Shown in pieces: positions 26,181-58,353 of a DNA stretch of 64,000 bases. The notes under the pieces were generated by a model. The model saw only the letters and a list, made by a program, of their open reading frames with translations. It was not told the origin of the DNA and searched no databases. A program made the translations under genes and the position numbers. Every line of letters begins with the position of its first letter. The first letter of the stretch is position 1. The DNA lies in NCBI RefSeq assembly GCF_004116625.1, contig NZ_NXIE01000002.1, positions 620,001-684,000 of the forward strand. Direction: 5' to 3'. The stretch comes from Halarcobacter mediterraneus (GTDB lineage Bacteria; Campylobacterota; Campylobacteria; Campylobacterales; Arcobacteraceae).

Positions 26181-29100
26181 ATGACTGAAGAAGAAGCCCA
26201 GAATTATGCCATTGTAACTTTTAATGATAATACTCAGTACTTAGAAAAAGAACACCCTGAATTGTTTCAAAAGTTGTCTTTATTCAATACTGCTCTTGAA
26301 ATAGGAGAGTTAAAAGCCCAATTTGATTTGCATTTTATTGATGGATATTTTGATATTATTAATCTTTCAAATAATCAATTACTCTATGGTCAAGACTCTT
26401 TTGAAGTGAGTAAGGCTTTTACATCTATTGTTAATACAGATATTTCAACTAGTTCTTTTAAAGCCTTTTATGAACAATCTGCAAATAAAGAACAGGCAGA
26501 AGACTCCCTTAAGAAAGGCTTACTTTCTGAATATACAGAAGGAAATGCTCCTATTATTAATTTTGTGAATAATAATTTACCACAAAAACAAACTTTAAAT
26601 AATATTTATAAATTTATAATATTTGGAGTAGGATTAGGTCTTCATATTCCTATAATTCATGAAAAACTAAAATCTAAACTTTATTTAATCGTTGAACCTA
26701 GTTTGGAAATTTTTAGGTTATCATTATTTGTAACAAACTATGCTAAATTAGCAAAAGAAGCTAAACTAATTTTAGCTATTGCTCAAGATGAAGAAAATTT
26801 TAAAAACTCTTTTGAATCTTTTTATAATGATAGCTTTATTTTTAATCACTATTTTAAATTCTTTAAATTAAGTGATAGTTTTCCTTTTTATACAAGAATT
26901 ATTCAAAATAGATTAGTTTCACAAAAGTTTTATTTATACCCATATCACCGGACTTTTTTAAGTTTATTCAGAACCAATAATTATATTATGGAAGGATTTA
27001 AAACTTTAAATATTTCAAAAGTTAATAATTTAGATTTTACTAAAAAACCTATTTTATATTTAGCAGCAGGACCATCTTTACAAAAGAATATTGATTTTGT
27101 AAAGGAATTTCAAGACAAGTTTACAATAGTAGCTATTTATGCAACACTTCCTCTTCTTGAACAACACAATATCAAACCTGATATTGTGACACAATATGAT
27201 GAGCAAGATGCTGCTGTTTTAAATACTTTAGAAAAAATAAGAAATATAAACTTTTTTGACAATACAATCTTTATCTTTGCATCTCATATTAATGCAAAAC
27301 TTATTAATAGTTTCAAAAAAGAAAATATTTATATTTTTCAAGCAATGTTTGAACTTAAAAAAGATTTTGGAATACTTACAAGCCCGAGTATTGGTGAACT
27401 TACTTATGGATTACTTTTAAAACTAGGTGCAAAAGAAATTTATCTTTTAGGTTTAGATTTAGCACTAGATGAAGAAACAGGAAAAACTCATATAGAAGGG
27501 CATAGTGGAGCAAATGCTTATAACAATTTAAAAGAAGAAGAGGACTCTTCTGATCATAATTATTCTTATAGAAAAAATACTATTAGAGTAAGAGGAAATT
27601 TAAAAGAGAGTATAAAAACGACCCCTGTATTTAAAACAAATATAGATTGTTTTACTTTTTTTACTCAAGATGATAAGCAAAAAGATACAAAAGTATATAA
27701 CCTTTCTAATGGAGCATATCTTGCAGATACAATCCCTCTTAAAATAGAAGATATGAACTCTAATAAATTAGAGACTAAACAAGAAAATATACTAGATATT
27801 ATAAAAAAAGATTTAGAAAAAATTTCTAAGTGTAACTATTCAAATGAAGACTTGGAAGATATAAATCTTAAAATTAGCAATTCAAAAAAAATGAAAAAAT
27901 CTTTAGAATCATTTTTTAAGATTAAAAACTATAAAAAATTTAAAGATTATGAAAATAATTTAATCTATACACTTCAAGTATTACTTTTTGAAAATAAATC
28001 TAATGATCTAAAGTCTATACTTATAAACTATTGCCAACATAATATTCCTTTTATTTTTCATTTATTTAATACAAATGAAGAAAAGAAAAATTTATCATTT
28101 ATTCCAAAACTTAATAAGATATTATCAATACAACTTAATAAAGTTATTGATACTTACTTAGTTTCTATTTTATATACAAAAGATGAAAAACACCAATTAA
28201 ATAAAAAATTAAATAAGCTAGTAAAAGAGTATAAAATAGAGCATACTAGATATTGTGAACCACATTTAAAAGAATTAAGTGAAACTGCACCGCTAAGGGA
28301 ATCAATAAGTTTTTGGGAAAATGCAATTGGAATATTTGCAGTAAATGAAAACCTAGAAAATAAAAATCTAATAGAATATATTTCAAATATTGTAAATACA
28401 TATAATTGTAAATTAAAAATATTTTACTTTTTCGAATATCAAAAAAATAAAGCCCGACAGATATTTAAAAATATAAAAGAAAAGATAGAGTTTATAATAC
28501 CTAATAGTCTTGAATCTTTAGCTAGTGAAATTGAAGTCTATATAGATGGAAGTAAAAATTTAAGTTTAGAAAATTTAAATGAAATCTTAGTAAATAAATA
28601 TTTAAACATACTTTGTATTGAGTTTACCCAGAATATTTATATAGAGAATAAAACTTTAGTTAAAGTAGAAAATGAAAACACTTCATTAAAAGGAAAGCTT
28701 TCACTAAACAAGCTACCAAATAGTAGATACTATAACTTCGTTCAAAGTTTAAATAATGTAGATGAAGAAAAACTTCGTGAACTATATAAAAAAGAGCATA
28801 TAGGCTTTTTTGCATTTGAAGAAAACTTAACTAAATACTTTGTAGAAAATATACATGAAATAGCTAATAGATTTCCAAATCTTAAATTTTCTTGTTTTTA
28901 CTTTACTGAAAAACAGAGAAAAAGATTTGAAAAAGTATTCTCAAACCTTTTAAATAGATTTGATTTTATCATACCTAATGATATTTATGATATAGCAACT
29001 AATACTGAGGTTTGGGTTCAAGCTGAGATCAAGAATCAAAGCATGACTTATACAAAGATACCTCTACTTATAGAAAAAACCATTAATATCTTTAATATTA

Positions 29101-29819
29101 TTATAGATAATAAATTTAAAATTAAAAATGATATAAATAGTAGTGAATATTTAGAGTATATTATTGAAAGATATGATGAAGCTAAATTTATAAAGAGTTT
29201 GAATCATAAAATTGATGAAAAAAGAATTGAAGGAAATTATACTTTAAATTCAATTGGTTTTTTAGCAACAGAGGATAGTTTAAAAGACCTAGAGTTTTTA
29301 AACTATATAAAACAAATTGTGAAGCATTTTCCTAAGAAGAAAGTAAAAGGTTTTATATTCGATAAAGAAGATGAAAGGAATGCTAAATTATTATTTAACA
29401 ACATTGAAAATATAGAAATTATTAAAATTATAGATATCTATCAAATAAATAAAAATTGTTTAGTTTGGTTATCATCAAGTAATTTTACATCCTTAGAAAT
29501 AAGAAAATATACAAGATATGCTCTATTTACAAATTTTGGTGATAAAAAATTAACAATTAAAGAATATGAACAAAAATATAAAAAATCATTTCAAAAATTT
29601 TATAATAATTCAAAAAAATTTAATATTTTAAATAATGACCCATCTTTTTTTATAGATTTATATAATAGAAAATTAGAAGAGTTACAAATAAATTATACAA
29701 TAACAAATGAAGAAAACTATTTTGATTTTTTTTCATTCAAACAATTAGAGTTTGCCCTTAACTATAAAAACTTTATTACTACAATGAAAAATATATCTAA
29801 TAAAATTAAAGAACTATAA
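26181..29819 (+). CDS. Maf-like motility accessory factor (DUF115), with repeated C-terminal modules
   Basis: Maf proteins are needed for flagellin glycosylation in Campylobacter, Helicobacter and Aeromonas and are thought to transfer nonulosonic acids to flagellin. The core is the DUF115/MptE-like domain at about 285-470: KKPILYLAAGPSLQKNIDF, PDIVTQYDEQDAA, SPSIGELTYGLLLKLGAKEIYLLGLDLALDE. At 1212 residues it is far longer than usual (600-750). About residues 715-1100 hold three divergent copies of a module of ~80 residues spaced ~150 apart (starts AIGIFAVNENL, IGFFAFEENL, SIGFLATEDSL). It directly follows the flagellins and leads the plus-strand operon. A GGGA site precedes the ATG. Confidence 0.9.
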   Translation: MTEEEAQNYAIVTFNDNTQYLEKEHPELFQKLSLFNTALEIGELKAQFDLHFIDGYFDIINLSNNQLLYGQDSFEVSKAFTSIVNTDISTSSFKAFYEQSANKEQAEDSLKKGLLSEYTEGNAPIINFVNNNLPQKQTLNNIYKFIIFGVGLGLHIPIIHEKLKSKLYLIVEPSLEIFRLSLFVTNYAKLAKEAKLILAIAQDEENFKNSFESFYNDSFIFNHYFKFFKLSDSFPFYTRIIQNRLVSQKFYLYPYHRTFLSLFRTNNYIMEGFKTLNISKVNNLDFTKKPILYLAAGPSLQKNIDFVKEFQDKFTIVAIYATLPLLEQHNIKPDIVTQYDEQDAAVLNTLEKIRNINFFDNTIFIFASHINAKLINSFKKENIYIFQAMFELKKDFGILTSPSIGELTYGLLLKLGAKEIYLLGLDLALDEETGKTHIEGHSGANAYNNLKEEEDSSDHNYSYRKNTIRVRGNLKESIKTTPVFKTNIDCFTFFTQDDKQKDTKVYNLSNGAYLADTIPLKIEDMNSNKLETKQENILDIIKKDLEKISKCNYSNEDLEDINLKISNSKKMKKSLESFFKIKNYKKFKDYENNLIYTLQVLLFENKSNDLKSILINYCQHNIPFIFHLFNTNEEKKNLSFIPKLNKILSIQLNKVIDTYLVSILYTKDEKHQLNKKLNKLVKEYKIEHTRYCEPHLKELSETAPLRESISFWENAIGIFAVNENLENKNLIEYISNIVNTYNCKLKIFYFFEYQKNKARQIFKNIKEKIEFIIPNSLESLASEIEVYIDGSKNLSLENLNEILVNKYLNILCIEFTQNIYIENKTLVKVENENTSLKGKLSLNKLPNSRYYNFVQSLNNVDEEKLRELYKKEHIGFFAFEENLTKYFVENIHEIANRFPNLKFSCFYFTEKQRKRFEKVFSNLLNRFDFIIPNDIYDIATNTEVWVQAEIKNQSMTYTKIPLLIEKTINIFNIIIDNKFKIKNDINSSEYLEYIIERYDEAKFIKSLNHKIDEKRIEGNYTLNSIGFLATEDSLKDLEFLNYIKQIVKHFPKKKVKGFIFDKEDERNAKLLFNNIENIEIIKIIDIYQINKNCLVWLSSSNFTSLEIRKYTRYALFTNFGDKKLTIKEYEQKYKKSFQKFYNNSKKFNILNNDPSFFIDLYNRKLEELQINYTITNEENYFDFFSFKQLEFALNYKNFITTMKNISNKIKEL
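28322..29482 (+). repeat. Three divergent repeat modules inside the Maf-like protein
   Basis: Modules at about residues 715-791, 874-949 and 1023-1100. Each follows the pattern [IS]-G-[IF]-[FL]-A-x-[NET]-[ED]-[NS]-L, then a helical stretch and K-[LFV]-K-x-F-x-F-[FD]. Next comes an ARQIF/RKRFEKVF/NAKLLFN-type helix, then I-I-P-N (or IIKII) and a closing EV[YW]-type strand. DNA similarity is low, so this is an old internal triplication. Confidence 0.6.
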
Positions 29820-30818
29820 ATGATCCTACATATAATGATAATGGATAAATTCCTTCCTTCGTTTATCAATTTTACAGATAAACACTTTGGAAGAGAAAAT
29901 CACAAATATGTATTTATTACTAGTGAAAAGTATAATTATGGCTTAAATAAAAAGCATGAAGTAGAGTTTTTACATACGAATGAAGAGATTTTTCACACTT
30001 TATTAGAGTACATGAAAAACTCAGAGAAAATAATACTTCATGGTTTATGGAGAGATAAAGTTGATTTACTATTAATTAAAAATCCCCATTTATTATCTAA
30101 ATCGTATTGGATTATGTGGGGAGGAGATTTTTATTTTCCAAAAAAACATAGTGATAATAGGAAAAAAATTATAAAAAATATCCCTTACTTAGTTACTGGA
30201 ACTACAGGTGAAATTGAATATGTAAGAAAACACTACAATGCAAAAGGAAAACATATTAAAGCTTTTGTTTATACTAGTAATTTATTTAAAGATATAAAAC
30301 TCAATTCTATTAACACAGACACAATAAGAATATTAGTTGGAAACTCATCTACTGAAACAAATCAACACTTTCAAGTCTTTGAAAAACTAAAAAAATATAA
30401 GCATAAAAATATTCAAATATATGTTCCCCTTTCTTATGGTAATCCTAGTTATGGAATGAAAGTTATGAAGAAAGGATATGAATTATTTAAAGATAAATTT
30501 AATCCTATGATTGACTTTATGAATGAAAAGAACTATTATGAGTTTCTATCTACTATAAATATTGCTATTTTTAATCATAATAGACAACAGGGAATGGGAA
30601 ACATTATAACACTTTTAGGAATGGGCAAAAAAGTATATATGAATCCAAAAGTATCTACATACAAAATGTTTTTGGAAAATAGCATTAAGGTTTTTAATAT
30701 TGATAATATAGACTTAGAATTAATAAATAATAATCAAAAAAACAATAATATAAAGAATACTAAATTTTTATTTTCCAAAGAAAGCTTTATTCAACAATTA
30801 AAAGAAATCTTTAATTAA
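29820..30818 (+). CDS. GT56-family glycosyltransferase (WecF/Fuc4NAc-transferase-like)
   Basis: Resembles TDP-N-acetylfucosamine:lipid II N-acetylfucosaminyltransferase (Glyco_transf_56). Family-like segments in the 332-residue product are KIILHGLWRDKVDLLL, YWIMWGGDFYFPKK, the VGNSSTETNQHFQVFEKL donor-domain motif, IYVPLSYGNPSYGMKV and the FNHNRQQGMGNIITLLGMGKKVYM segment. In E. coli WecF adds Fuc4NAc from a dTDP donor; rmlA, rmlB and a WecE-like gene downstream could make a matching donor. The ATG directly follows the stop of the Maf gene. The acceptor here could be flagellin-linked glycan or a lipid intermediate. Confidence 0.8.
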   Translation: MILHIMIMDKFLPSFINFTDKHFGRENHKYVFITSEKYNYGLNKKHEVEFLHTNEEIFHTLLEYMKNSEKIILHGLWRDKVDLLLIKNPHLLSKSYWIMWGGDFYFPKKHSDNRKKIIKNIPYLVTGTTGEIEYVRKHYNAKGKHIKAFVYTSNLFKDIKLNSINTDTIRILVGNSSTETNQHFQVFEKLKKYKHKNIQIYVPLSYGNPSYGMKVMKKGYELFKDKFNPMIDFMNEKNYYEFLSTINIAIFNHNRQQGMGNIITLLGMGKKVYMNPKVSTYKMFLENSIKVFNIDNIDLELINNNQKNNNIKNTKFLFSKESFIQQLKEIFN

Positions 30819-30872: not shown

Positions 30873-31907
30873 ATGACAAACTTAAATCTAGAAATACTAG
30901 ATTGCACATTAAGAGATGGGGGATATGTTAATGATTGGAGATTTAGTAGTGGATTTATAGAGAAAGTGATAAATACATTAACTAATGCAAGAGTAGAAAA
31001 CATAGAATGTGGTTACTTTATAAAAGATAAAAAAGAAAATATCTATGGAGCATTATTTAATGATTTAAATTTTCTTAAAAAGGATCCCAATATCGATATA
31101 AAGGGGAAAGAAAGTAATTTTTTTGCAATGGTTGATGTCGCTAAAGTTGAAATAGATGATATTCCTAATTACTCTGGACAGATAATTGATACATTAAGAG
31201 TTGTATTTTATAAACATCAAATAAATATTGCTTTACCCTTAATAAAATCTATTTTAGATAAAGGATTTAAGGTATTAGCACAACCTATGGTTACAATTGA
31301 TTATAGTGAAAATGAGTATATTGATTTATTAAGAAGAATTGATTCAAGAGTAAGTATGATTTCAATTGTTGACTCTTTTGGTAATATAACAAAAAATGAA
31401 CTAATTAGATATATTAAGCTTTTAGATAATACTCTAGACAATTCAATCGGTATTGGATTACATTTACATGATAATCTAGAAAATGCAATATTACTATTAA
31501 ATAATTTTATAGAATATGCTTATTTAATAAACTGTAAAAGAAAATTAATAATTGATTCCAGCTTATCTGGCATTGGTAGAGGAGCAGGAAATTTAAAGAC
31601 AGAAATTTTAGCTTATCATATGAATGAATTACATAATTATGAAAAGTATGATATATATGCTTTTTTAGATTGTATAAATACAACAATTTTACCTCTTAAA
31701 CATAATCATAATTGGGGTTCGGACCCTTTTACAAAAGCTACAGCTTTATTAAATGTTCACCCAAATTATGCTAAATTCTTAAGAGTTGTTGATCCAAATA
31801 TATCATTATCAAGTTTTGTAAATTTTATAAAAAATATGCCAGAAGAATATAGAACTCATTGTAGACTAGAAAAAACAAGAAAGTTATATGAAAAGAATAA
31901 TAAATGA
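30873..31907 (+). CDS. HMGL/DmpG-like aldolase-domain enzyme
   Basis: TIM-barrel enzyme of the HMG-CoA lyase / 4-hydroxy-2-oxovalerate aldolase superfamily. The 344-residue product has the metal-site start LEILDCTLRDGGYVNDW (Asp and Arg of the CTLRDGG motif), the metal-binding GIGLHLHDNLENA (His-x-His) and DSSLSGIGRGAGNLKTE. These enzymes make or break C-C bonds next to a 2-oxo acid using a divalent metal. Relatives occur in surface-polysaccharide clusters with unknown substrates. It has its own strong ribosome binding site. With the RraA-like protein at 36433 it forms a pair of aldolase-type enzymes in the same operon. Confidence 0.82.
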   Translation: MTNLNLEILDCTLRDGGYVNDWRFSSGFIEKVINTLTNARVENIECGYFIKDKKENIYGALFNDLNFLKKDPNIDIKGKESNFFAMVDVAKVEIDDIPNYSGQIIDTLRVVFYKHQINIALPLIKSILDKGFKVLAQPMVTIDYSENEYIDLLRRIDSRVSMISIVDSFGNITKNELIRYIKLLDNTLDNSIGIGLHLHDNLENAILLLNNFIEYAYLINCKRKLIIDSSLSGIGRGAGNLKTEILAYHMNELHNYEKYDIYAFLDCINTTILPLKHNHNWGSDPFTKATALLNVHPNYAKFLRVVDPNISLSSFVNFIKNMPEEYRTHCRLEKTRKLYEKNNK

Positions 31908-31934
31908 ATATAAAAATAATAAAAAGGATTAATA

Positions 31935-32615
31935 ATGCCATTAACTACTGAACATAGAAATATAAATGTAGGAGGGGATGATTTAGACTTGTCTTGTATA
32001 AAAGATGTTCCTACATTTATTATTGATGTGGGTGTTTCTGCAGGGACACCTTGGTTATATGAGTCATTTCCAAATGCAAATTATGTTTTAATTGATCCAT
32101 TAAATGTTGTTGATGAACTTAATATTTATTTATCAAAAATGGATTATAAATTTCATGAAGTTGCCTTATCATCTGAAGATGGTGGTATTTTAACAATTAA
32201 TATGGATACTGAACAACCAGCACTTAGCTCTATTTTACCATTATCTAAACATAATGAAAGAGGACATGAATTAAAGGAAATAAAAGTAAATAAAAGGAGA
32301 CTTGATTCTCTTTTAAATGAAGAATATAAGGAAGAAGTAACTTCAAATACTACTTTATTAAAAATTGACACAGAAGGGTATGAACTAGAAATAGTTAAAG
32401 GAGCAACTGAAATATTAGAACATATAGACTACCTTATTTGCGAAGTTTCTGTATATGATAGGTTTGAAAACGGTTATACATTACTCGACTTATTATCATT
32501 TTTAGATAAACAAGGATTTATATTATCAGAAGTTCTTAGATTTGCAAAGCTTAATGGTAAAGTTGTGGTAGGAGATATGCTTTTTATAAAAAAGGGAAGA
32601 AAAAATGAATCATAA
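31935..32615 (+). CDS. FkbM-family methyltransferase
   Basis: SAM-dependent O-methyltransferase of the FkbM family, common in glycan loci. The 226-residue product has FIIDVGVSAGTPWLYESFP (SAM loop), NYVLIDPLNVV, the VALSSEDGG segment and LLKIDTEGYELEIVKGA, the conserved family signature. It overlaps the cytidylyltransferase gene by 11 bases. The methyl acceptor is unknown; a sugar hydroxyl or an acyl side chain is likely. Confidence 0.88.
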   Translation: MPLTTEHRNINVGGDDLDLSCIKDVPTFIIDVGVSAGTPWLYESFPNANYVLIDPLNVVDELNIYLSKMDYKFHEVALSSEDGGILTINMDTEQPALSSILPLSKHNERGHELKEIKVNKRRLDSLLNEEYKEEVTSNTTLLKIDTEGYELEIVKGATEILEHIDYLICEVSVYDRFENGYTLLDLLSFLDKQGFILSEVLRFAKLNGKVVVGDMLFIKKGRKNES

Positions 32616-33309
32616 AATTAGTGTTTTTTTACCAGTAAGGTCAGGAAGCACAAGAGTAATTAATAAAAATACTAAACTTTTTTCCAATGATAGTTCACTA
32701 TTACAAATAAAACTGCAACAGTTAATTAAAACTTCTACTATTGATGAAATAATAGTTTCCACTAATTGTAATATATGCTTAAACCAAGCTCAAGATTTTT
32801 TATTAAAAGATTCGAGAATTAAGTTAATAAAAAGAAGTGATGAACTTGCAAATGGGAAAACTACTGTCAAACAGATGCTTACACATATGTGTAAACTAGT
32901 ATCTTATGACCATATTCTATATACCCATGTAACATCTCCTTTTATTAATAACTATCATTTTGACGATGCTATAACTAAGTATAATAAGCTTATTGATAAC
33001 AATAATATTGATAGTATGATATCTGTTAATAAGATTCAAAACTTTATTTTAGATAAAAAAGGAAACTTAATTAATAATAAAATATCTGAAAACAAGTGGC
33101 CAAATACACAAGACTTAGATGTTTTATATGAGATGAATCATGCATTTTATTTAGCCTCAAAAAAATTATTCCAAACAGGTGATCGAGTTGGTAAAAATCC
33201 TTTCTATTATGAATGCGTTGGAACAGAAAGAATAGACATTGATTGGGAAGATGATTTTACTTTTGCTCAAAAAGTTTATAAACTTTTGTATGAAAGTAAA
33301 AAACAATGA
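32605..33309 (+). CDS. Acylneuraminate cytidylyltransferase-like enzyme
   Basis: Resembles CMP-sugar synthetases (NeuA/PseF/KdsB group), which activate ulosonic acids with CTP. The 234-residue product has the N-terminal nucleotide motif FLPVRSGSTRVINKNTKLF (family form PARxGSxRxxxKN), then IDEIIVSTNC, YDHILYTHVTSPFI and the C-terminal RIDIDWEDDFTFAQ with metal-binding acidic residues. It is distinct from PseF at 55531, so a second CMP-activated sugar or sugar-like acid is likely. It overlaps both neighbours by a few bases. Confidence 0.85.
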   Translation: MNHKISVFLPVRSGSTRVINKNTKLFSNDSSLLQIKLQQLIKTSTIDEIIVSTNCNICLNQAQDFLLKDSRIKLIKRSDELANGKTTVKQMLTHMCKLVSYDHILYTHVTSPFINNYHFDDAITKYNKLIDNNNIDSMISVNKIQNFILDKKGNLINNKISENKWPNTQDLDVLYEMNHAFYLASKKLFQTGDRVGKNPFYYECVGTERIDIDWEDDFTFAQKVYKLLYESKKQ

Positions 33310-34580
33310 TTATCCAAATCGATGGATGGTTTGCAGGGGGGAAAAGTGTATTATGGTCATTACTAGATGGACATAAAGATATTTATGTATCTCCTCTACA
33401 TGATTATACATTCTCTAGACTACTAAAAGAAGATTGTACACCATGGATAAAATCTAAAAATTTACTTTTTTTAAGAAAAATACTTTTAGGAGAAACTTCT
33501 TACTACAAATTTGAACAAATTCTAAAATATGGTACTCTTGATATTAGTCTTTCTTCAGAAGAAACTATAAAGTTACCTTACAATATTGACTTTTATACCC
33601 TAGACAGGAATTATATTAATACAATAGAAAAACTAGAGAAATGGACGCCAGAAATTCTTATTGAAACTTTATATGAAACTCTATATAAAACATTCATAAA
33701 GAGTCATCAAACTAAAAAATATTATGCTTCAATGGGTAATGCATATTATTATAAAAACTATAAAAATATACCAAAAATTTTTCCAAATATGAAGTCAATT
33801 ATTGTAAAAAGAGATATAAAAAATATTATTGCTTCTAGAATCAATAGGAAAGTAAGGCCGATTGATGTCAAAGAACATAATGCCTTTGCATCAGAATTTG
33901 AAATAATAATAAAGTCAAGAGAAATAGAAAAAATAGTTGACTATTTCAAGACTTTAGATTTTTTATCTAAAAGATACCCAAATAAGTTTTTTATTGTAGA
34001 ATTTGATGATTTAGTTAAAAATACAAAAAATACTATGAAAAAAATATCAAACTTCTTGGAAATTAAATTTGAAGAAGTTTTAACAAAACCTACTAGGGAT
34101 GGACGATACCTTCAAAAAAATGGAATTAGTTTTATAGGACAAGAAAATGATACCTATGAAAAATTACTAACTGAAAATGAAGTTGATATTATTAATGAAA
34201 GAATCAAGTCATGCAACCCAAATACTAATCTAAACCTTAAGAGTGATTATAATTATAAATTATCTAAAGATATAAATAAAATAATTTCTCAAATAAATCA
34301 TATAAAAGAATCTCATAATAAAATAATTCTCTATGGGAATGGAAATATCTGTAAACTTATATCTACTTTATTAGCTGATAAATTATTATGTATAGTTGAT
34401 CAAAAGGAAGCTCTTGACTCAGAAAATAAGAAAGTGATAAATCCTTTAAAATTAAGAAATCTAAATTTTGATGTTATTTTAATTACTGTACTTGGTAGAG
34501 AATTAGAAATTATTAATGATTTAATAACTCTGTATCAAGTAGAAAAAAATAAGATTATTTCATTTAATATAGAGGATTAA
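33306..34580 (+). CDS. Sulfotransferase with C-terminal YG-x-G Rossmann-like module
   Basis: Predicted PAPS-dependent sulfotransferase. Residues about 1-290 contain the 5'-phosphosulfate loop (QIDGWFAGGKSVLWSLLDGH, an AGGKS variant of the usual RSGTT form) and the 3'-phosphate motif IVKRDIKNIIASRINRK. The FLEIKFEEVLTKPT segment near 250 is also family-like. Residues about 335-424 are a separate domain starting KIILYGNGNICKLI, shared with three other enzymes in the island. A run of six G (in AGG-K codons near 33340) is unusual in this AT-rich DNA. It implies a sulfated glycan and a PAPS supply elsewhere. Confidence 0.8.
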   Translation: MIIQIDGWFAGGKSVLWSLLDGHKDIYVSPLHDYTFSRLLKEDCTPWIKSKNLLFLRKILLGETSYYKFEQILKYGTLDISLSSEETIKLPYNIDFYTLDRNYINTIEKLEKWTPEILIETLYETLYKTFIKSHQTKKYYASMGNAYYYKNYKNIPKIFPNMKSIIVKRDIKNIIASRINRKVRPIDVKEHNAFASEFEIIIKSREIEKIVDYFKTLDFLSKRYPNKFFIVEFDDLVKNTKNTMKKISNFLEIKFEEVLTKPTRDGRYLQKNGISFIGQENDTYEKLLTENEVDIINERIKSCNPNTNLNLKSDYNYKLSKDINKIISQINHIKESHNKIILYGNGNICKLISTLLADKLLCIVDQKEALDSENKKVINPLKLRNLNFDVILITVLGRELEIINDLITLYQVEKNKIISFNIED

Positions 34581-34581
34581 G

Positions 34582-35775
34582 ATGAAAAGAATATTAGTAA
34601 TTGGAGGAGGACAATGGCAAATACCAATTATAAAAAAAATAAAAGAACTTGGACATACTGTTATTTGTACAAATCTTTACGAAAATTCTCCTGCTTTTAA
34701 GTTTTCAGACCATTCTTATATAATTGATATCCTAAATAAAAATAAAAACCTTGAAATAGCAAAAAAACACAAAGTTCATGCTGTAATATCAGACCAAACA
34801 GATATTGCTGTAAAAACTGTTGCATACATAAATAAAAAACTTAGTTTAAATGGTAATAAAGAGGATATAGCAGAACTTTTTACTAATAAATTAAGAATGA
34901 GAAATGAAATAAATATACCTAACATACATCATCCCAAATTTAAACTATGTAAAAATGTTCAAGATGTAATAAATTTTTTTGAAAAAATACAAGTACCAAT
35001 AATTCTTAAACCTTTAGACAATCAGTCAAGTAGAGGTTTAGAATTTGTTGATTCACTTTTAAATATAAAAGATAAAGTAAAAACAACTTTAATGTATTGC
35101 CATAATAAACAATTCTTAGCTGAAGAATTTATTGGAGGCATTGAATTAACTGTAGAAGGTTACAAAAGTAGATTAGCTAAACATGAAAGTTATGCTGTTT
35201 CAAAAAAAACTCATTTTAAAAATACTATAGGAGTTGCCTCTTCACTGCAATATCAACAAAAGTTTGATGAATTTAATATAAATATATTAAAAGAGATAAA
35301 TAATCAGATATTTAAAAATATAAACTTTGGAATAACTCATACTGAATATAAACTCTACAAAGGAAAGTTTTATTTAGTTGAAGCAGCAATTAGAGGAGGA
35401 GGAACAAAGGTTTCTTCTTTAATAACTCCATTAATGAGTGGTTATGACACTAACTCTTTTTTAATTAAAGAAGCACTTGGAGAAAATATTTTATTGGAAA
35501 AAACAGTTAAAACAGAAAATACTATTTCTCTTAATTTTTTTAATTTCAAAGAAGGAGTAGTTAAAGAAATAACAGGAATTGATATCCTAAAAAACAATGA
35601 AAATATTTTAGATTATTCATTAGAATTTGAAATTGGAAGTTATATTAAATCCCCTACTGATGATAGAAGTAGAAGTGGGTATTATATTATTAAAGCAAAT
35701 GACATAGAAGAGTTAAAAAAAATATCTAAAGAGATACAAAAAAATATTCTAATCTCCTACAAAGGATTATTATGA
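34582..35775 (+). CDS. ATP-grasp carboxylate-amine ligase
   Basis: ATP-grasp enzymes join a carboxylate, activated as acyl phosphate, to an amine or thiol. The 397-residue product starts with a pre-ATP-grasp Rossmann strand (RILVIGGGQWQIPIIKKI). The ATP-binding PIILKPLDNQSSRGLEFV and FLAEEFIGGIELTVEGY follow, then YLVEAAIRGGGTKVSSL with metal-binding Glu. This layout is like PurK/carbamoyl-phosphate-synthetase-type ligases. In this operon it could attach an acid to the 4-amino sugar made by the WecE-like aminotransferase, or build an amide precursor; this is inference. It overlaps the next gene by four bases. Confidence 0.85.
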   Translation: MKRILVIGGGQWQIPIIKKIKELGHTVICTNLYENSPAFKFSDHSYIIDILNKNKNLEIAKKHKVHAVISDQTDIAVKTVAYINKKLSLNGNKEDIAELFTNKLRMRNEINIPNIHHPKFKLCKNVQDVINFFEKIQVPIILKPLDNQSSRGLEFVDSLLNIKDKVKTTLMYCHNKQFLAEEFIGGIELTVEGYKSRLAKHESYAVSKKTHFKNTIGVASSLQYQQKFDEFNINILKEINNQIFKNINFGITHTEYKLYKGKFYLVEAAIRGGGTKVSSLITPLMSGYDTNSFLIKEALGENILLEKTVKTENTISLNFFNFKEGVVKEITGIDILKNNENILDYSLEFEIGSYIKSPTDDRSRSGYYIIKANDIEELKKISKEIQKNILISYKGLL

Positions 35776-36461
35776 AAATGTCAAAAGAAGATATAGAAAT
35801 TATACAAAATAGATATTCAACAAGATTTGTAAAATATGGATACTCTCCTAAAACATTAGGATGGGATAAAGGGAAGCAGGACCTTAGGTATCATATTTTA
35901 CTAGAAGATTATAATTTAGAAAATAAAAGTATTTTAGATATTGGATGTGGTTTTGCAGATGCTAATATACTCTTAAAGAAGAAAGTTGAAAATTATACAT
36001 ACTTAGGAGTAGATATTGTAAAAGAACTTATTGAAACAGCAACAGAAATATATAAAGATGATTCTCATATTGACTTTATTTTAGGAGATTTTTTAAATCT
36101 TAATTTAAATAAAAAATTTGATATTGTTATAGCATCTGGTATATTTAATTTTAAACTAACAAACGAAGATAATTATGATTTTATAAATTCCTTTATGAAA
36201 AAAGCTTATAATCTTTCAAAAGAAGGTATTTCTTTTGACTTTTTATCAGACAAAGTAGATTTTCAATATAAAAATACCTTTCATAGTTCTCCTTCAAAAA
36301 TATTAGATATGGCATATCAATTTAGCAAAAATGTATCTTTAAAAAACAATTATATGCCTTTTGAGTTTGCCATAACTATTTTTAAAGATGAAAGCTTTGA
36401 AAAAAAAGACACAATATTTAAAAGGTTCAAAAATGAAAAAAGTTATTATAGATTTCATTAA
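35772..36461 (+). CDS. Class I SAM-dependent methyltransferase
   Basis: A 229-residue methyltransferase with the SAM motif I SILDIGCGFADANILL, motif II YLGVDIVKELIETA, an acidic FILGDFL (motif III) and FDIVIASGIFN. It is a small single-domain enzyme, with a C-terminal end rich in Lys. The substrate cannot be inferred beyond a small molecule or sugar. It overlaps the ATP-grasp gene by four bases, and the RraA-like gene starts inside its last 29 bases. Confidence 0.85.
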   Translation: MKMSKEDIEIIQNRYSTRFVKYGYSPKTLGWDKGKQDLRYHILLEDYNLENKSILDIGCGFADANILLKKKVENYTYLGVDIVKELIETATEIYKDDSHIDFILGDFLNLNLNKKFDIVIASGIFNFKLTNEDNYDFINSFMKKAYNLSKEGISFDFLSDKVDFQYKNTFHSSPSKILDMAYQFSKNVSLKNNYMPFEFAITIFKDESFEKKDTIFKRFKNEKSYYRFH

Positions 36462-37086
36462 AAGAAATCGTGTATCAACAACTGAACTAGCAGATTGTAT
36501 GGGGAAAAGTGGTGCAATCTATAATGTATCAGCAATAAATAAAGGTCACTTTAAAGTAGGTAATTTATTTTGGGTCTATGCTACAGGAGGAACAAACTGG
36601 AATGTTCATAAACAAATAGAAAAAGTATCTGATAATGATATTGTTTTTATTGAAGCATTGGATAATGAAGATAAAGCAATTTTTGGAGATTTAGTTTCTA
36701 AATATCTAATTCTGTACAAACAAGCAAATGCTATAGTTACAAATGGTCTATTAAGGGATGCACCAAGAATACTAAAAGAAAACTGGCCAATCTGGTGTCA
36801 TGGTTTTAATCCAGTAGGATATATAAATGAACCAGTTAAAATTAAAAAAGAAATAAGAGAATTAATAAAAGAAAAGCAGAAACTATACAAAAACTCTATT
36901 GCTGTTTGTGATGACACAGGGGTAGTGATAATTCCATCTAAATATCACAATAAAAAATTCCTAAAAAAAATAAAATCAATTGAAGAACAAGAAGATATTT
37001 GGTTTGATTGTATTGATAGAAAAAAATATTCAACCTTTGAAACTGTATGTCTAAAGAAATATGAAAAAGGTATAAATAAATGCTAA
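36433..37086 (+). CDS. RraA-like (HMG/CHA aldolase family) protein
   Basis: Resembles the RraA fold (regulator RraA, and the 4-hydroxy-4-methyl-2-oxoglutarate / 4-carboxy-4-hydroxy-2-oxoadipate aldolases). Visible features are TTELADCMGKSGAI near the start, then the core GDLVSKYLILYKQANAIVTNGLLRDAP and WCHGFNPVGY. The catalytic family pattern is DGxxRD; here it is NGLLRD, an Asp-to-Asn change, while the Arg-Asp pair is kept. I chose ATG 36433, behind AAAAGG and giving MKKVIIDFIKRN, over the upstream in-frame ATG 36388, which lies in the methyltransferase gene. 217 residues. Aldolase activity is likely but not certain. Confidence 0.62.
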   Translation: MKKVIIDFIKRNRVSTTELADCMGKSGAIYNVSAINKGHFKVGNLFWVYATGGTNWNVHKQIEKVSDNDIVFIEALDNEDKAIFGDLVSKYLILYKQANAIVTNGLLRDAPRILKENWPIWCHGFNPVGYINEPVKIKKEIRELIKEKQKLYKNSIAVCDDTGVVIIPSKYHNKKFLKKIKSIEEQEDIWFDCIDRKKYSTFETVCLKKYEKGINKC

Positions 37087-38246
37087 TCAACTTCAATAAA
37101 CCAACTATTATTGGGACTGAGCAGAAATATATTTTAACCTCAATGCAAAAAAATAAAATATCTGGAGATGGATATTTTACTAAATTATGTCAAAACTGGT
37201 TTAATAAAAAACTAAATGCAAAATTAACATTACTTACACCTTCATGTACTCATTCATTAGAAATGGCAGCACTTTTACTAGACATAAAAAAAGGAGATGA
37301 AATAATAATGCCATCTTATACTTTTGTAAGTACTGCGAATGCATTTGCTTTAAGAGGAGCAAAAATTATATTTATAGATATAAATGCTGACACTATGAAC
37401 ATTGATGAATCTAGAATAGAAGATGCTATAACACAAAAAACAAAAGCAATTGTTGTAGTACATTATGCAGGAGTTTCTTGCGAGATGGATACAATTATGG
37501 AAATTGCGAATAAATACAACATTTTTGTAGTAGAAGATTCAGCACAAGCTATTATGTCAAAATACAAAGATACATATTTAGGTACAATTGGTCACATAGG
37601 AACCTACAGTTTTCATGAAACTAAAAATCTTACAAGTGCAGGAGAAGGTGGACTTTTAATTATAAATGATAATAGATTTAAGAAAAGAGCAGAGATTATT
37701 AGAGAAAAAGGAACGAATAGAAGTCAATTTTTTAGAGGAGAAATAGATAAATATACCTGGGTTGACATAGGCAGTAGCTATTTATTAAATGATATAAGTG
37801 CTGCTTTTCTTTGGGGACAAATTCAAAATGCTAAACTTATTACAAAAAATAGACTTAATACATGGAGTATTTATTATAAAAATTTAAAAATTTTAGAGAA
37901 ACAAGGATACTTGAAACTACCTTTTATACCAAAAGAATGTATTCATAATGCACATATGTTTTATATAAAATTAAAAGATGAAAAAACAAGATTTAATCTT
38001 ATAAAATTCTTGAGAAAAAATGGTATTGAATCTTGCTTCCACTATATACCTTTACATACTTCTACTGCAGGTAAAAAATATAGTAAATTTGTGGGAGAAG
38101 ATATACATACAACAAAAGAAAGTAAAAAGATACTTAGACTTCCTCTATATTTTGAATTATCGGAAAGGGATACAATGTATATCATAGAAAGAATAAAAAC
38201 TTTTTTCAAAACTTACGATGAAAATAAAATTTTTGTAAACACCTAA
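37080..38246 (+). CDS. WecE-like sugar aminotransferase (DegT/DnrJ/EryC1/StrS family)
   Basis: PLP enzyme that most resembles dTDP-4-amino-4,6-dideoxygalactose transaminase (WecE/RffA), converting dTDP-4-keto-6-deoxyglucose to the 4-amino sugar. The 388-residue product has the N-terminal INFNKPTIIGTEQKYI, DEIIMPSYTFVSTANAFALRGA, VVEDSAQAI, the PLP-lysine motif TYSFHETKNLTSAGEGG and HMFYIKLKD. Its likely substrate is made by RmlA and RmlB encoded 3 kb downstream. No WecD-like N-acetyltransferase is seen nearby. It overlaps the RraA-like gene by seven bases. Confidence 0.85.
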   Translation: MLINFNKPTIIGTEQKYILTSMQKNKISGDGYFTKLCQNWFNKKLNAKLTLLTPSCTHSLEMAALLLDIKKGDEIIMPSYTFVSTANAFALRGAKIIFIDINADTMNIDESRIEDAITQKTKAIVVVHYAGVSCEMDTIMEIANKYNIFVVEDSAQAIMSKYKDTYLGTIGHIGTYSFHETKNLTSAGEGGLLIINDNRFKKRAEIIREKGTNRSQFFRGEIDKYTWVDIGSSYLLNDISAAFLWGQIQNAKLITKNRLNTWSIYYKNLKILEKQGYLKLPFIPKECIHNAHMFYIKLKDEKTRFNLIKFLRKNGIESCFHYIPLHTSTAGKKYSKFVGEDIHTTKESKKILRLPLYFELSERDTMYIIERIKTFFKTYDENKIFVNT

Positions 38247-40958: not shown

Positions 40959-41831
40959 ATGAAAGGAATAATTCTTGCAGGTGGCTCAGGAACTAGACTT
41001 TACCCTGTAACAAAATCAATTAGTAAACAATTATTACCAGTTTATGATAAACCTATGATATATTATCCTTTATCAATATTAATGCTTTCCAAAATACAGG
41101 AAATATTAATAATAACAACTCCTGAAGATATAGATAACTTTAAAGAGTTATTAGGGGATGGATCAAATTGGGGTATAATGTTACAATATAAAATACAACC
41201 AAAACCAAAAGGATTAGCACAAGCATTTATAATAGGTGAAAAGTTTATAGGGGAAGATAGTGTTTGTTTAATTCTTGGTGATAATATATTTTATGGTAAT
41301 GGGCTTAGTAGATTTGTTCAAAGAGTAGCTCAAAGTAAAAAAGGAGCCACTATTTTTGCATATCAAGTTAAAAATCCTAGTAGATTTGGTGTAGTTGAGT
41401 TTGATAAAAATTATAATGCATTAAGTATTGAAGAGAAGCCTAAGACTCCTAAATCAAATTATGCAATTACAGGTTTATACTTCTATGATAATGATGTTAT
41501 TGAAATTGCAAAAAAAGTAAAACCTAGTATGAGAGGTGAATTAGAGATAACTTCAATTAATGAAAAATATCTTGAAAAAGGAAATCTAAAAGTTGAACTA
41601 CTAGGTCGTGGTTTTGCATGGCTTGATACAGGAACACATGACAGTCTAATTGAGGCTTCTCAGTTTGTACAAACTATTGAGCATAGACAAGGCTACAAGA
41701 TAGCTTGTTTAGAAGAAATTGCTTATAATAATAATTGGATAAGTAAAGAAAAAGTTCTTGAAATTGCAAAACCTTTATCTAAAAATTCATATGGTAGATA
41801 TTTAATTGAATTAGTTAAGGAAGAGGAATAA
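40959..41831 (+). CDS. rmlA: Glucose-1-phosphate thymidylyltransferase
   Basis: Makes dTDP-glucose from dTTP and glucose-1-phosphate. The 290-residue product has the signature [69 protein letters not shown] and [14 protein letters not shown], all diagnostic of RmlA/RffH. Length is standard. rmlB follows directly, but no rmlC or rmlD is present, so the product probably does not go to rhamnose but to the amino sugar made by the WecE-like enzyme. Confidence 0.97.
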
Positions 41832-42869
41832 TTGAATAAAAGTATTTTAATAACTGGAGGTGCAGGATTTATAGGTAGTAATTTTATACCATATTTTCTA
41901 AAAAAATATAACCAATATCAAATAATAAATCTAGATTTATTATCTTATGCTGGAAATTTAGAAAACTTAAAAGAAATAGAAAACCATTCTAGATATAAGT
42001 TTATAAAAGGTGATATATGTAATAGAGAGTTAGTTGAGTTTATATTTGAAGAATATGATATAAAAGGTGTTATACATTTTGCAGCAGAATCACATGTTGA
42101 TAATTCTATTAAAGATCCAGGAATATTTATACAGACAAATGTAAATGGTACATTTACATTAATTGATGTTGCATATAGATATTGGATGAAAGAGCCTTTT
42201 AAATATAAGACTACTTATAGAAATTGTAGATTTCATCATATCTCAACAGATGAAGTTTATGGAACACTACCTGACGACTCCAAAGAGTTATTTACAGAGA
42301 AGACTCCATATGCTCCTAATTCTCCATATTCAGCCAGTAAAGCTTCTTCAGACTTTATAGTAAAAGCATATAATAAAACATATGGAATAAATACGGTAAT
42401 AAGTAACTGCTCAAATAACTATGGACCAAAACAACATAATGAAAAATTAATCCCAACAATTATAAAAAGGATTCTAGAAAATAAACCTATACCAATTTAT
42501 GGAGATGGGGGGAATGTTAGAGATTGGTTATTTGTATTAGATCATTGTAAAGGAATTGATTTAATTTATCATAAAGCTAAAAATGGAGAGACCTTTAATA
42601 TTGGAGGGAATAATGAAAGAACTAACCTTCAAGTGGTAGAAAAAATTTGTTCTATCCTTGATAAGGAAATACCTCCTAAAACAGTTCACTCATATAAGAA
42701 ACTTATTAATTTTGTAGAAGATAGAGCAGGACATGATAGAAGATATGCAATTGATACAAGTAAATTAGAAAATGAACTTGGATGGAATGTAGATGAAAGT
42801 TTTGAGACAGGTATCACTCTAACGATAAAATGGTATTTAACTAAAAACAAGGAGAGAAATAATACATGA
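41832..42869 (+). CDS. rmlB: dTDP-glucose 4,6-dehydratase
   Basis: Converts dTDP-glucose to dTDP-4-keto-6-deoxyglucose. The 345-residue short-chain dehydrogenase has LITGGAGFIGSNFIPYF, VIHFAAESHVDNSI, STDEVYGTL, the YSASKASSD catalytic Tyr-Lys motif and FNIGGNNERTNLQVV. The start is a TTG placed directly after the rmlA stop, with rmlA's GAGGAA serving as ribosome binding site. It overlaps the next gene by four bases. Confidence 0.96.
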   Translation: MNKSILITGGAGFIGSNFIPYFLKKYNQYQIINLDLLSYAGNLENLKEIENHSRYKFIKGDICNRELVEFIFEEYDIKGVIHFAAESHVDNSIKDPGIFIQTNVNGTFTLIDVAYRYWMKEPFKYKTTYRNCRFHHISTDEVYGTLPDDSKELFTEKTPYAPNSPYSASKASSDFIVKAYNKTYGINTVISNCSNNYGPKQHNEKLIPTIIKRILENKPIPIYGDGGNVRDWLFVLDHCKGIDLIYHKAKNGETFNIGGNNERTNLQVVEKICSILDKEIPPKTVHSYKKLINFVEDRAGHDRRYAIDTSKLENELGWNVDESFETGITLTIKWYLTKNKERNNT

Positions 42870-53142: not shown

Positions 53143-53636
53143 TTTTTCTCTTTTTCTAACGACATTACTGTATATTCTTGATTATTGTGTATCTCTTTTC
53201 TCAAAATTTTAAAGCCAAAAAATTCATGTATTTTTATCACATGGTTTTTACTATCATTTATACATAATAATCTATCCAAAGATAAGTGCTCAAAAGCAAG
53301 TTCTATTATAATTTTTTCTATTTTTAGCACTTCACTCTTATAGTTTTCATTAATCAAAAAATAGCCCCAATAGGCTTCTTTTTCATCAATATCATGATAT
53401 GAAATAGCAATAAATGGTATATTATCTTTATAAACTAAATAATTTAACTTAGTATCGTCATTTTTTAAGCTATCAATCCATTTTAAATGACTTTCTAATG
53501 TTATTTCATCTTGTTGAAGCATCCACTTTTTATTTTTATTTCTAGATTCTAAAACTAAACACTTTTCATCATATGTCAAACTACAATAGTGTTTAAAGGT
53601 GTATGTTTCTAGAGTAAACTTATCTTTTAGATTCAC
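53139..53636 (-). CDS. pseH: PseH, UDP-4-amino-4,6-dideoxy-AltNAc N-acetyltransferase (GNAT)
   Basis: Transfers acetyl from acetyl-CoA to the 4-amino group of the altrosamine intermediate. The 165-residue GNAT protein has the PseH-style segment ESRNKNKKWMLQQDEITLESHLKWI, then EAYWGYFLINENYKSEVLKIEKI and the C-terminal HEFFGFKILRKEI. It lies between pseG and the VOC gene, overlapping both. The nearby ACP raises the option that it, or the FkbH protein, uses an acyl-ACP donor; acetyl-CoA is the family rule. Confidence 0.85.
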   Translation of the reverse strand: MNLKDKFTLETYTFKHYCSLTYDEKCLVLESRNKNKKWMLQQDEITLESHLKWIDSLKNDDTKLNYLVYKDNIPFIAISYHDIDEKEAYWGYFLINENYKSEVLKIEKIIIELAFEHLSLDRLLCINDSKNHVIKIHEFFGFKILRKEIHNNQEYTVMSLEKEKK

Positions 53637-54531
53637 TTTTTATCCCATTTATTAACTTTACTAATTTTTTATTTGAAAATGTTTCCAGTACTTTATACTT
53701 TTTCTTTTTTAAGTATTTATACATATATTTTTGATTATCTGCAGTTTTAATAGCAATAAAGTCTAAGTTCATATAAATAACTTCATGAACAGTTACACTA
53801 GGAGTAACTATTGCAAAGCTACTTCTTGCCATCAATTTTGCTATTTTTTTTGAGTCAATATATAAATTAATATTTTGGTATTTACTACACTTTTTCTTTA
53901 AAGCTTTCAAATTTTTATTTGAAGAACTTGTAATAATATTAACTCTATATTTTTTAAAATATTTTACTAAAACATCTATAATCTTAGGATTTAAACCTAA
54001 GTGGTCAACTCCACCCATTGCAACAAAAATCTCATTTTTCTTTTTGACTTTTTTTTGCTTTTTAAATTCATCTCTTATTAGAGTATGTTTTTTACCACAT
54101 CTAAGTTCACAAAAACTAGGAACTAATTTCTTATATTTTTCCTCTTTTGCATAAATATTATGATTTAAAACTATATCGCAATAATGTTTCTTATAGATAT
54201 CATCAAAACAAAGAAGTTTTATTTTTGAGTTTTGCTTTATATATTTTTCAAAACTATAATCTATATCATAATTATCTATTACAATAAAATCTATTTTAAG
54301 TTTTGTTATTAACTCCAAAAATTCTTTTTTATTATTGCTTTTTAAAACTTTAAGGGTATAGCCTTCTTCAATTACTTTTTTATTAAAGTTACCACTTAAG
54401 TTTTCACATGCAAAGTATATTTTAGAGTTTTTGTATTTTTTAGCAAGAGTCAAACTTCTCATAAGATGTCCAAGACCTATATTTGAAGAAGAGTTTACTC
54501 TAAAAAGAATCTTTTTCAAGTCTATCTCCAA
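53620..54531 (-). CDS. pseG: PseG, UDP-2,4-diacetamido-2,4,6-trideoxy-AltNAc hydrolase
   Basis: Releases UDP from the diacetamido-altrose intermediate. The 303-residue GT-B-like product has the conserved loop FRVNSSSNIGLGHLMRSLTLAK (family RxDxSxxIGxGHxMR, with Asn in the Asp place), IDFIVIDNYDID, GKKHTLIRDEF, IFVAMGGVDHLGLNPKI and FAIVTPSVTVHEV. The protein is rich in Lys. It overlaps pseI by 32 bases and pseH by 17 bases. Confidence 0.9.
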   Translation of the reverse strand: MEIDLKKILFRVNSSSNIGLGHLMRSLTLAKKYKNSKIYFACENLSGNFNKKVIEEGYTLKVLKSNNKKEFLELITKLKIDFIVIDNYDIDYSFEKYIKQNSKIKLLCFDDIYKKHYCDIVLNHNIYAKEEKYKKLVPSFCELRCGKKHTLIRDEFKKQKKVKKKNEIFVAMGGVDHLGLNPKIIDVLVKYFKKYRVNIITSSSNKNLKALKKKCSKYQNINLYIDSKKIAKLMARSSFAIVTPSVTVHEVIYMNLDFIAIKTADNQKYMYKYLKKKKYKVLETFSNKKLVKLINGIKSESKR

Positions 54532-55534
54532 ACTTATAATCTTTCTTTGCTTTTTTACCTAAAATTTCATTTAAATATTTTGGATGCAATCCAAATCCTG
54601 GTCTTACTGATTTTATATTCTCATTTGTAAACTCTTCACCTTCTTTGATATCTTTACAAACATAAAGGCTTCTTGAATACTTTCTATTTTTCTTTCTTTT
54701 ATCATTCATTTCATAATCAATAGTTCCTTGAAGCTTTTGAGCTTCTCTTATTGATTTTATCATAAAAGCTAAATCATCTTTTTCCATAGAAAACTCTGCA
54801 TCAGGACCACCAATACTCTTATCAAGTATAAAATGTTTTTCAATAACTTTTGCACCCAATGTAACTGCCATAATAGGAGCTGTACTTCCTAAAGTATGAT
54901 CAGAAAAACCAACTTCTACCCCAAATCTTTTTTTCATATCAGCAATTGTATTTAAATTTGCATCTTCAAGTGGTGCTGGGTATGAGCTAGTACACTTTAA
55001 AAGAATAATATCTTCATTCCCTTCTTTTTTACATATATCAATTACATCTTCAATTTCTTCTAAAGTTGCAATACCTGTACTTATAATTATAGGTTTTCTT
55101 TTACTTGCTACATATCTTATTAATTCATAATCAGTTATTTCAAATGAAGCAATTTTGTAAGCACTAGGATTAAACTGCTCTAAAAAATCAACTGCCGTCT
55201 TATCAAAAGGTGAAGAAAAAATATCTATTCCAATTTCTCTTGCATAAGCAAATAGTTCTTCATGCCACTGCCAAGGAGTACTTGCCCACTCATAAAGTTC
55301 ATAAAGATTTTTTCCATCCCAAAGTGTTCCACCATCAACCATAAAGTCATCATTTTTACAGTTTAATGTTATTGTATCTGCTGTATATGTTTGAAGTTTT
55401 ATTGCATTTGCTCCACACTCTTTGGCTGCTTTTATGCTTTTCTTTGCAATTTCTAAAGAACCATTATGGTTTGCACTTAATTCTGCAATTACATATACAT
55501 TACCTAATGAAAAATCAAAATCACCTATTTTCAA
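54500..55534 (-). CDS. pseI: PseI, pseudaminic acid synthase
   Basis: Condenses 6-deoxy-AltdiNAc with phosphoenolpyruvate to form pseudaminic acid. The 344-residue NeuB-family protein has VYVIAELSANHNGSLEIAKK, ANAIKLQTYTADTITL, IDIFSSPFDKTAVDFLE, YKIASFEITDYELI, VEVGFSDHTLGSTAPIMAV and IEKHFILDKSIGGPDAEFS. A C-terminal SAF (antifreeze-like) domain starts about residue 285 (RSLYVCKDIKEGEEFT). The NH-GS and FSMEK-type residues fit PseI better than LegI or NeuB. Confidence 0.94.
   Translation of the reverse strand: MKIGDFDFSLGNVYVIAELSANHNGSLEIAKKSIKAAKECGANAIKLQTYTADTITLNCKNDDFMVDGGTLWDGKNLYELYEWASTPWQWHEELFAYAREIGIDIFSSPFDKTAVDFLEQFNPSAYKIASFEITDYELIRYVASKRKPIIISTGIATLEEIEDVIDICKKEGNEDIILLKCTSSYPAPLEDANLNTIADMKKRFGVEVGFSDHTLGSTAPIMAVTLGAKVIEKHFILDKSIGGPDAEFSMEKDDLAFMIKSIREAQKLQGTIDYEMNDKRKKNRKYSRSLYVCKDIKEGEEFTNENIKSVRPGFGLHPKYLNEILGKKAKKDYKFGDRLEKDSF

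Positions 55535-57361: not shown

Positions 57362-58353
<992 letters not shown>

Follow-up and report, generated by a model that had tools for sequence, protein, structure and literature searches.

A DmpG-like aldolase paired with a cytidylyltransferase suggests a phosphoenolpyruvate-independent route to CMP-activated ulosonic acids in bacterial glycan islands

We analysed a stretch of 64,000 nucleotides (nt), hereafter the window, from the genome of Halarcobacter mediterraneus (contig NZ_NXIE01000002.1, positions 620,001 to 684,000). Its + strand carries, within a flagellin glycan island, the gene of a DmpG-like (DRE-TIM) putative pyruvate aldolase (HMGL; 344 amino acids (aa), 30873..31907) and that of a NeuA-like cytidylyltransferase, the putative activator of the HMGL product (CMPt; 234 aa, 32605..33309), with an FkbM-family methyltransferase gene between them (31935..32615; PF05050 53.5 bits). 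From the sequences, we consider it fairly probable that HMGL and CMPt form a two-gene pathway to an ulosonic acid activated with cytidine monophosphate (CMP), independent of phosphoenolpyruvate (PEP). HMGL, as a metal-dependent enzyme of the DmpG type, would add the enolate of pyruvate to an aldehyde, either an aldose or its phosphate, and so form a 3-deoxy-2-ulosonic acid, from which, in many relatives, a neighbouring HAD phosphatase would strip the phosphate. CMPt would then transfer CMP from cytidine triphosphate to the anomeric hydroxyl of the acid. The resulting CMP-sugar would be used by a transferase of the Maf/sialyltransferase fold, which is fused to the aldolase in relatives and would here be the neighbouring Maf of 1212 aa, while the FkbM protein probably O-methylates the sugar. 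An earlier note on this DNA had proposed a pyruvate-aldol and CMP route for HMGL, CMPt and an RraA-like protein encoded downstream (36388..37086). The three genes are as it described them, all intact and on the + strand, and the route is supported for HMGL and CMPt but not for RraA.

The association between HMGL and CMPt is genuine, and it is widespread: it recurs across at least six phyla of bacteria. We scanned 84,980 species genomes with an HMGL profile and analysed the loci (numbered with an L below) of the best 80 of more than 575 relatives, which span Bacillota, Bacteroidota, Synergistota, Melainabacteria, Campylobacterota and others. In 60 of these 80 loci, a cytidylyltransferase gene lies on the same strand at 900 nt or less from the HMGL gene (31 KdsB-like, 29 NeuA-like), vs. 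15.7 expected under random placement of the cytidylyltransferases present in these loci. A HAD phosphatase gene occurs within 1.5 kb of HMGL in 23 loci, and a PseI- or KdsA-type synthase was found in the locus (within about 8 kb) of only 3. Among the Campylobacterota, loci with HMGL of the window type all have an adjacent cytidylyltransferase (21/21), vs. none for the solitary core HMGL of Arcobacteraceae (0/20). Moreover, every Arcobacteraceae relative scoring more than 150 bits has a NeuA- or KdsB-like partner, as the neighbouring gene or within one fused protein of about 770 aa. On the HMGL tree, the partner has changed from the NeuA-like to the KdsB-like type or back no fewer than 13 times. 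On Leisingera plasmids, consecutive genes are annotated by NCBI as aldolase, 3-deoxy-manno-octulosonate cytidylyltransferase and HAD hydrolase. No relative was found in viral contigs. In addition, three loci from one genus of family f2, in the order of the window, contain clusters with up to three HMGL and eight cytidylyltransferase genes (L176 3139-18994, which holds the maximum, L173 6091-15399 and L174 483-12782); these arrays look like parallel pathways to several CMP-acids.

The same pairing was observed for two other aldolase families. In some Campylobacterota, the place of HMGL is occupied by an HpaI-type protein (L073, L086) or by another protein of the PF03328 type (HpcH; L074, L084). 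Across 397 genomes, close relatives of the HpaI-type protein (66-88% identity) are beside a cytidylyltransferase in 10 cases out of 10 (five NeuA, five KdsB) and distant ones (31-37%) in 0 out of 7; for the HpcH type, the figures are 9/9 for close relatives (63-90%) and 0/6 for distant ones. Together with the core HMGL, these controls show that the method does not by itself produce the adjacency. The HpaI-cytidylyltransferase pairs (L073 8422-9874, L086 9002-10436 and loci L191-L200) form a parallel cassette in other Campylobacterota, and the pair of L086 is followed by genes for a D-2-hydroxyacid dehydrogenase and a short-chain dehydrogenase/reductase. Glycan islands are variable, and HMGL, CMPt and RraA might have been assembled in this one by chance, with no common pathway. 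This would fit the mosaic nature of flagellin and capsule islands, the divergence of the window HMGL and the fact that RraA demonstrably belongs elsewhere (see below). For the HMGL-CMPt family it is contradicted by the pairing counts, the fusions, the 21/21 adjacency and the controls, and we give it very little probability.

HMGL belongs to the DRE-TIM metallolyase family (PF00682 50.3 bits, cut-off 29), and its metal and pyruvate motifs, which the earlier note had called intact, are invariant across 30 relatives (R14, D15, H197, H199, N201). The closest NCBIfam models are 4-hydroxy-2-oxovalerate aldolases (65-73 bits), homocitrate and isopropylmalate synthases scoring at most 19 bits. We compared an AlphaFold (AF2) model of HMGL (predicted local distance difference test, pLDDT, 91) with solved structures. 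The nearest is 3dxi (Z 33.1, E 9e-30), from the putative aldolase BVU_2661 of Bacteroides vulgatus. This entry covers the N-terminal domain of a larger protein, according to its deposition, and is compatible with the layout of aldolase and extra domain described below. DmpG-type aldolases follow with Z 29-30 over 320+ residues (1nvm, Z 30.4 over 324), vs. Z 22-26 over about 260 residues for isopropylmalate, homocitrate and 3-hydroxy-3-methylglutaryl-CoA enzymes. HMGL thus resembles DmpG in fold, metal site (D15, H197, H199), R14 and a GxGxGAGN motif. It differs from it by a score far below the equivalog cut-off (TIGR03217, 65.4 vs. 286 bits), by the lack of an aldehyde-dehydrogenase partner, by its location in glycan clusters and by the residue found after LRDG: His in DmpG (LRDGMH in 8ih7), where it is the catalytic His21, but Tyr in the window HMGL (LRDGGY, Y18) and its family.

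Since the PF00682 superfamily includes citramalate- and homocitrate-like synthases, HMGL might instead be a Claisen-type synthase acting with an acyl-CoA. The cytidylyltransferase would then activate a branched polycarboxylic acid, much as phosphonate pathways link CMP to a hydroxy or phosphonic acid; non-sugar acids are substrates of some cytidylyltransferases with this fold. We regard this as highly improbable given the scores and Z values above, the family motif GxGRGAGN (isopropylmalate synthases have GERAGN), the NeuA/KdsB type of the partners and the membership of the two other paired lineages in pyruvate-aldolase families as well. The possibility that HMGL is a core metabolic enzyme was rejected, the solitary core HMGL of Arcobacteraceae being on a different and distant branch of the tree. 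In a tree of 103 HMGL domains, the window HMGL falls in a nine-member short-form group (with L088-L092, L094, L177 and L178; 99% support in the Shimodaira-Hasegawa-like approximate likelihood ratio test, SH-aLRT), all members of which have a NeuA gene adjacent or one gene off, and no HAD gene. Methyltransferase genes flank HMGL within this clade in L088 (FkbM), L177 and L178, to be compared with the FkbM gene of the window.

CMPt exceeds the cut-off of its family (PF02348, 43.3 vs. 22.6 bits) and keeps the metal-binding DxD (D211/D213). Its score with the PseF model TIGR03584 (53.7 bits) is far under the cut-off (205.7), and the true PseF gene is located at 55531-56241 on the - strand, so the earlier claim of a cytidylyltransferase other than PseF is borne out. 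A role as second PseF was rejected because of this score and of the genes counted in the genome, which already has a PseF. In the CMP-N-acetylneuraminic acid (CMP-Neu5Ac) synthetase of Neisseria, Gln104 binds the sugar and Mg2+ (PMC2901514). The equivalent position is a His in 38 of the 48 HMGL-linked NeuA-like proteins, including CMPt (H108), and a Tyr in PseF.

The source genome encodes exactly three PF02348 proteins (KdsB, PseF and CMPt). Its sole NeuB-family gene is PseI, in the separate pseudaminic-acid operon, and its sole DAHP_synth_1 match is a KdsA-type gene on another contig. The HMGL-CMPt operon contains no NeuB/PseI-type synthase, as the earlier note had seen, the PseI and KdsA-type genes of the genome both belonging elsewhere. 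Because the genome has three cytidylyltransferases for only two PEP-dependent synthases (KdsA and PseI), CMPt is left without a PEP-dependent partner. We extended this census, for the NeuB family alone, to 50 genomes with an adjacent HMGL-cytidylyltransferase pair, taking more than 120 bits as the mark of a full-length gene. Such a gene was found in 14 genomes and was missing from 36, which have either nothing or partial matches of 24-47 bits; as many of the 50 genomes are metagenome bins, these absences are uncertain. The partial matches cover only part of the model and are read here as 3-deoxy-D-arabino-heptulosonate 7-phosphate synthases; if they were counted as NeuB, the census would be uninformative. 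Among the 36 genomes are the isolates Niameybacter massiliensis, Paenibacillus sp. HB172176 and Lactimicrobium massiliense.

The fusions are triple proteins of about 770 aa, composed of an aldolase, a Maf-, sialyltransferase- and MptE-like domain and a KdsB. In the L076 fusion, Pfam and NCBIfam place the HMGL-like part at residues 4-255 and the 3-deoxy-manno-octulosonate cytidylyltransferase at residues 529-769. A C-terminal domain of about 200 aa is present on HMGL in 64 of the 80 relatives and absent from the window HMGL. Its model (pLDDT 92) matches Maf (5mu5, Z 11.0 over 183 residues), the MptE pyrophosphokinase (Z 12.4), the CMP-sialic-acid transferases CstI and CstII (Z 9-10; CstI 2p56, Z 9.6 over 155) and mammalian sialyltransferases (Z 7-9); with Foldseek alone no significant match was obtained, and the relation to Maf and sialyltransferases emerged only on VIA-align re-ranking. 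This is the fold of enzymes that use CMP-ulosonates, a shared fold being no proof of activity. The fused domain, a putative transferase, shares its fold with Maf flagellin glycosyltransferases and GT42 sialyltransferases, from which it differs by its shorter length. A Clostridium Maf takes both CMP-Neu5Ac and CMP-Kdo (PMC11339370). As the window HMGL lacks the extra domain, the neighbouring Maf flagellin glycosyltransferase (26181..29819, +; PF01973 112 bits, PF20157 40.7 bits), located directly upstream in the same gene string, is the natural candidate for the use of the CMP-ulosonate.

The reaction of HMGL could also run in the opposite direction. The best-known role of DmpG-type and HpaI-type aldolases is that of a catabolic lyase, and an enzyme that cleaves an ulosonic acid in the manner of NanA, so as to degrade or edit it beside its activating enzyme (control of pool size, or salvage), would equally suit the pairing with CMPt. 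We consider this very unlikely: the loci are glycan-biosynthesis clusters with no evident uptake genes, the aldolase is fused with a synthetase and a transferase-fold domain, and the 36 genomes without a full-length NeuB have no such gene to make the acid to be cleaved.

We then considered the RraA-like protein (232 aa, class II pyruvate-aldolase fold; translation might also begin later, near 36433). It matches PF03737 (65.9 bits, cut-off 24.5) and scores well below the two equivalogs for 4-carboxy-4-hydroxy-2-oxoadipate aldolase (NF006731, 49.0 vs. 179 bits; TIGR02798, 45.0 vs. 304.5 bits). Relatives occur in 5 of 397 Campylobacterota genomes including that of the window, the other four being 70-77% identical (L074, L075, L170, L171). 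An ATP-grasp ligase and WecE are encoded close to RraA in all five loci, usually with WecF and RmlA/RmlB, whereas HMGL is absent from the four other loci and the cytidylyltransferase from three of them (L075, L170, L171). RraA thus travels with ATP-grasp and WecE and not with HMGL, and therefore has a role in making or modifying a residue of 4-amino-4,6-dideoxygalactose (Fuc4N), probably its N-acyl group. On these neighbourhoods, RraA was rejected as a third member of the aldolase-CMP route. The earlier note had held the occurrence of the aldolases elsewhere without the cytidylyltransferase to be unfavourable; the outcome of this test is against RraA and mostly in favour of HMGL (paired in 60/80 and 21/21 loci).

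The neighbours of RraA form a second module, unrelated to HMGL and CMPt, which would make and modify the Fuc4N of the same flagellin glycan. In the window it comprises, all on the + strand, a WecF-like GT56 glycosyltransferase, putatively the Fuc4N transferase (29820..30818; PF07429 81.7 bits; 48-67% relatives in the RraA-bearing islands L074, L075 and L170), an ATP-grasp ligase resembling L-amino-acid ligases (34582..35775; PF18603 41.4 bits, PF13535 33.6 bits; 49-58% relatives beside RraA and WecE in L074, L075, L170 and L171), an S-adenosylmethionine-dependent methyltransferase (35772..36461; PF13649 46.6 bits; 67-69% relatives in L074 and L075), RraA itself and the dTDP-4-amino-4,6-dideoxygalactose (Fuc4N) transaminase WecE (37080..38246; NF008687 610 bits, cut-off 375; TIGR02379 625 bits, cut-off 434.85). 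RmlA and RmlB, identified by sequence (40959..42869), would supply WecE with dTDP-4-keto-6-deoxyglucose, and 72-78% relatives flank the RraA module in L170 and L171. The block of ATP-grasp, methyltransferase or amidohydrolase, RraA and WecE, with RmlA, RmlB and WecF, is conserved between the window (34582-38246), L074, L075, L170 and L171. The ATP-grasp/RraA/WecE block is probably an unusual N-acyl-Fuc4N pathway of flagellin and other glycan islands. The L074 island (WecF, sulfotransferase, ATP-grasp, methyltransferase, RraA, WecE) is the closest counterpart to the rest of the window operon.

The earlier note had suggested, as an alternative, that the aldolases make an acyl group for the amino sugar. 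This fits the RraA/ATP-grasp half better; for HMGL, its absence from the four other RraA/ATP-grasp/WecE loci speaks against it. In its full form, the product of HMGL would be a small 4-hydroxy-2-keto or branched acid, which the ATP-grasp ligase would attach to Fuc4N or another sugar to give an acyl or ether substituent, and CMPt would be a second PseF acting on a PEP-derived acid, for example pseudaminic acid or a derivative. The ATP-grasp, RraA, methyltransferase and WecE genes of the same operon do resemble an N-acyl-Fuc4N pathway, a PseI synthase is encoded in another part of the window and the PseF model does match CMPt, if weakly. We nevertheless judge this explanation unlikely, as HMGL and cytidylyltransferase occur together, even fused, without ATP-grasp or WecE, a PseF is already present, and no full-length NeuB would feed the cytidylyltransferase in 36 of the 50 cassette genomes.

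Several points weigh against the PEP-independent route of HMGL and CMPt. The sequences show the identity of the genes, the intact motifs, the recurrent pairing, the fusions, the folds and the lack of a PEP synthase; the reaction with its direction, substrate and product, and the use on flagellin, are inferred. Adjacent genes tell neither in which direction a reaction runs nor on what substrate. The 80 loci analysed are the top matches to a profile built from already linked pairs, and a lower pairing frequency is to be expected in distant relatives. The core-HMGL controls (0/20) are a single orthologous group and not independent, and all the aldolase controls are few and related. With Tyr in place of the catalytic His of DmpG, HMGL would need a different general base. 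The window HMGL sits on a long branch and its subgroup is devoid of the HAD gene. Residue 167 of CMPt is an Asn, where most HMGL-linked relatives have the Arg of a P-R-[ST]-Q motif beside the carboxylate-binding site; this may reflect an altered substrate or a weakened enzyme. Finally, some HMGL relatives lack the cytidylyltransferase: those of Gastranaerophilales (L114, L118, L144, L152) and plasmid copies in Desulfobaculum, Priestia and Paraburkholderia. On the plasmid of Desulfobaculum bizertense (L224 3191-6014), the HMGL relative lies after a split transketolase and RfbH and has no cytidylyltransferase nearby, possibly another use of the aldolase.

The proposed route resembles the KdsA-KdsC-KdsB, NeuB-NeuA and PseI-PseF pathways, in which three pyruvoyl carbons are added by an enzyme forming a C-C bond, often with a HAD phosphatase as the next step, before a CTP_transf_3 enzyme activates the acid and a CMP-ulosonate transferase uses the product. 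It would differ from the CMP-Kdo and nonulosonic pathways by the replacement of the PEP-dependent synthase with a DmpG-like (or HpaI/HpcH-like) pyruvate aldolase. To our knowledge, the C-C bond is made with PEP in the known pathways to ulosonic acids of surface glycans (Kdo, sialic, pseudaminic and legionaminic acids). In the open-access literature we found no account of glycan clusters that combine HMGL or HpcH/HpaI aldolases with cytidylyltransferases, and such an account may exist elsewhere. Our results suggest a second, so far undescribed bacterial way to sialic-acid-like surface sugars. More broadly, it seems to us about equally likely to be right or wrong that at least six phyla (Campylobacterota, Bacillota, Bacteroidota, Synergistota, Melainabacteria, Pseudomonadota) make CMP-ulosonic acids by direct aldol addition of pyruvate, that at least three aldolase lineages (DmpG-, HpaI- and HpcH-like) were recruited in place of PEP-dependent synthases, that some species make, activate and transfer the acid in one polypeptide and that the products have a chain length or stereochemistry new to surface glycans. 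If true, the aldolase route would account for cytidylyltransferases that have neither NeuB nor KdsA as partner, also among Gram-positive bacteria. New acidic sugars would then be expected on flagella, capsules and S-layers, and ready-fused enzymes would be at hand for the synthesis of CMP-ulosonates. The vague label "aldolase catalytic domain-containing protein" would also give way to a directly testable function.

Within the source genome (2.83 Mb), the island of the window starts at 22839 with two flagellin genes in tandem, nearly identical to each other (22839-24299 and 24423-25964), followed by Maf. From Maf (26181) to GT-x (44050), the + strand gene string is almost gapless, with spacings of -74 to +54 nt. 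Between CMPt and the ATP-grasp gene, it includes a sulfotransferase-family protein with an extra C-terminal domain (33306..34580, +; PF00685 43.1 bits), possibly involved in decorating the glycan, with a 50% identical relative in the G014 flagellin island. The separate pseudaminic-acid operon, the PEP-dependent counterexample to the HMGL-CMPt pair, is located on the - strand (53620..58353), where open reading frames and the genome census of PF03102 and PF02348 identify PseG (53620), PseI (54500), PseF, PseC and PseB. In addition, a similar domain of about 100 residues is apparently appended to the C-terminus of unrelated enzymes of the island (sulfotransferase, methyltransferase, glycosyltransferase-like; 33306-34580, 39935-40948, 42866-44050 and 45220-46551).

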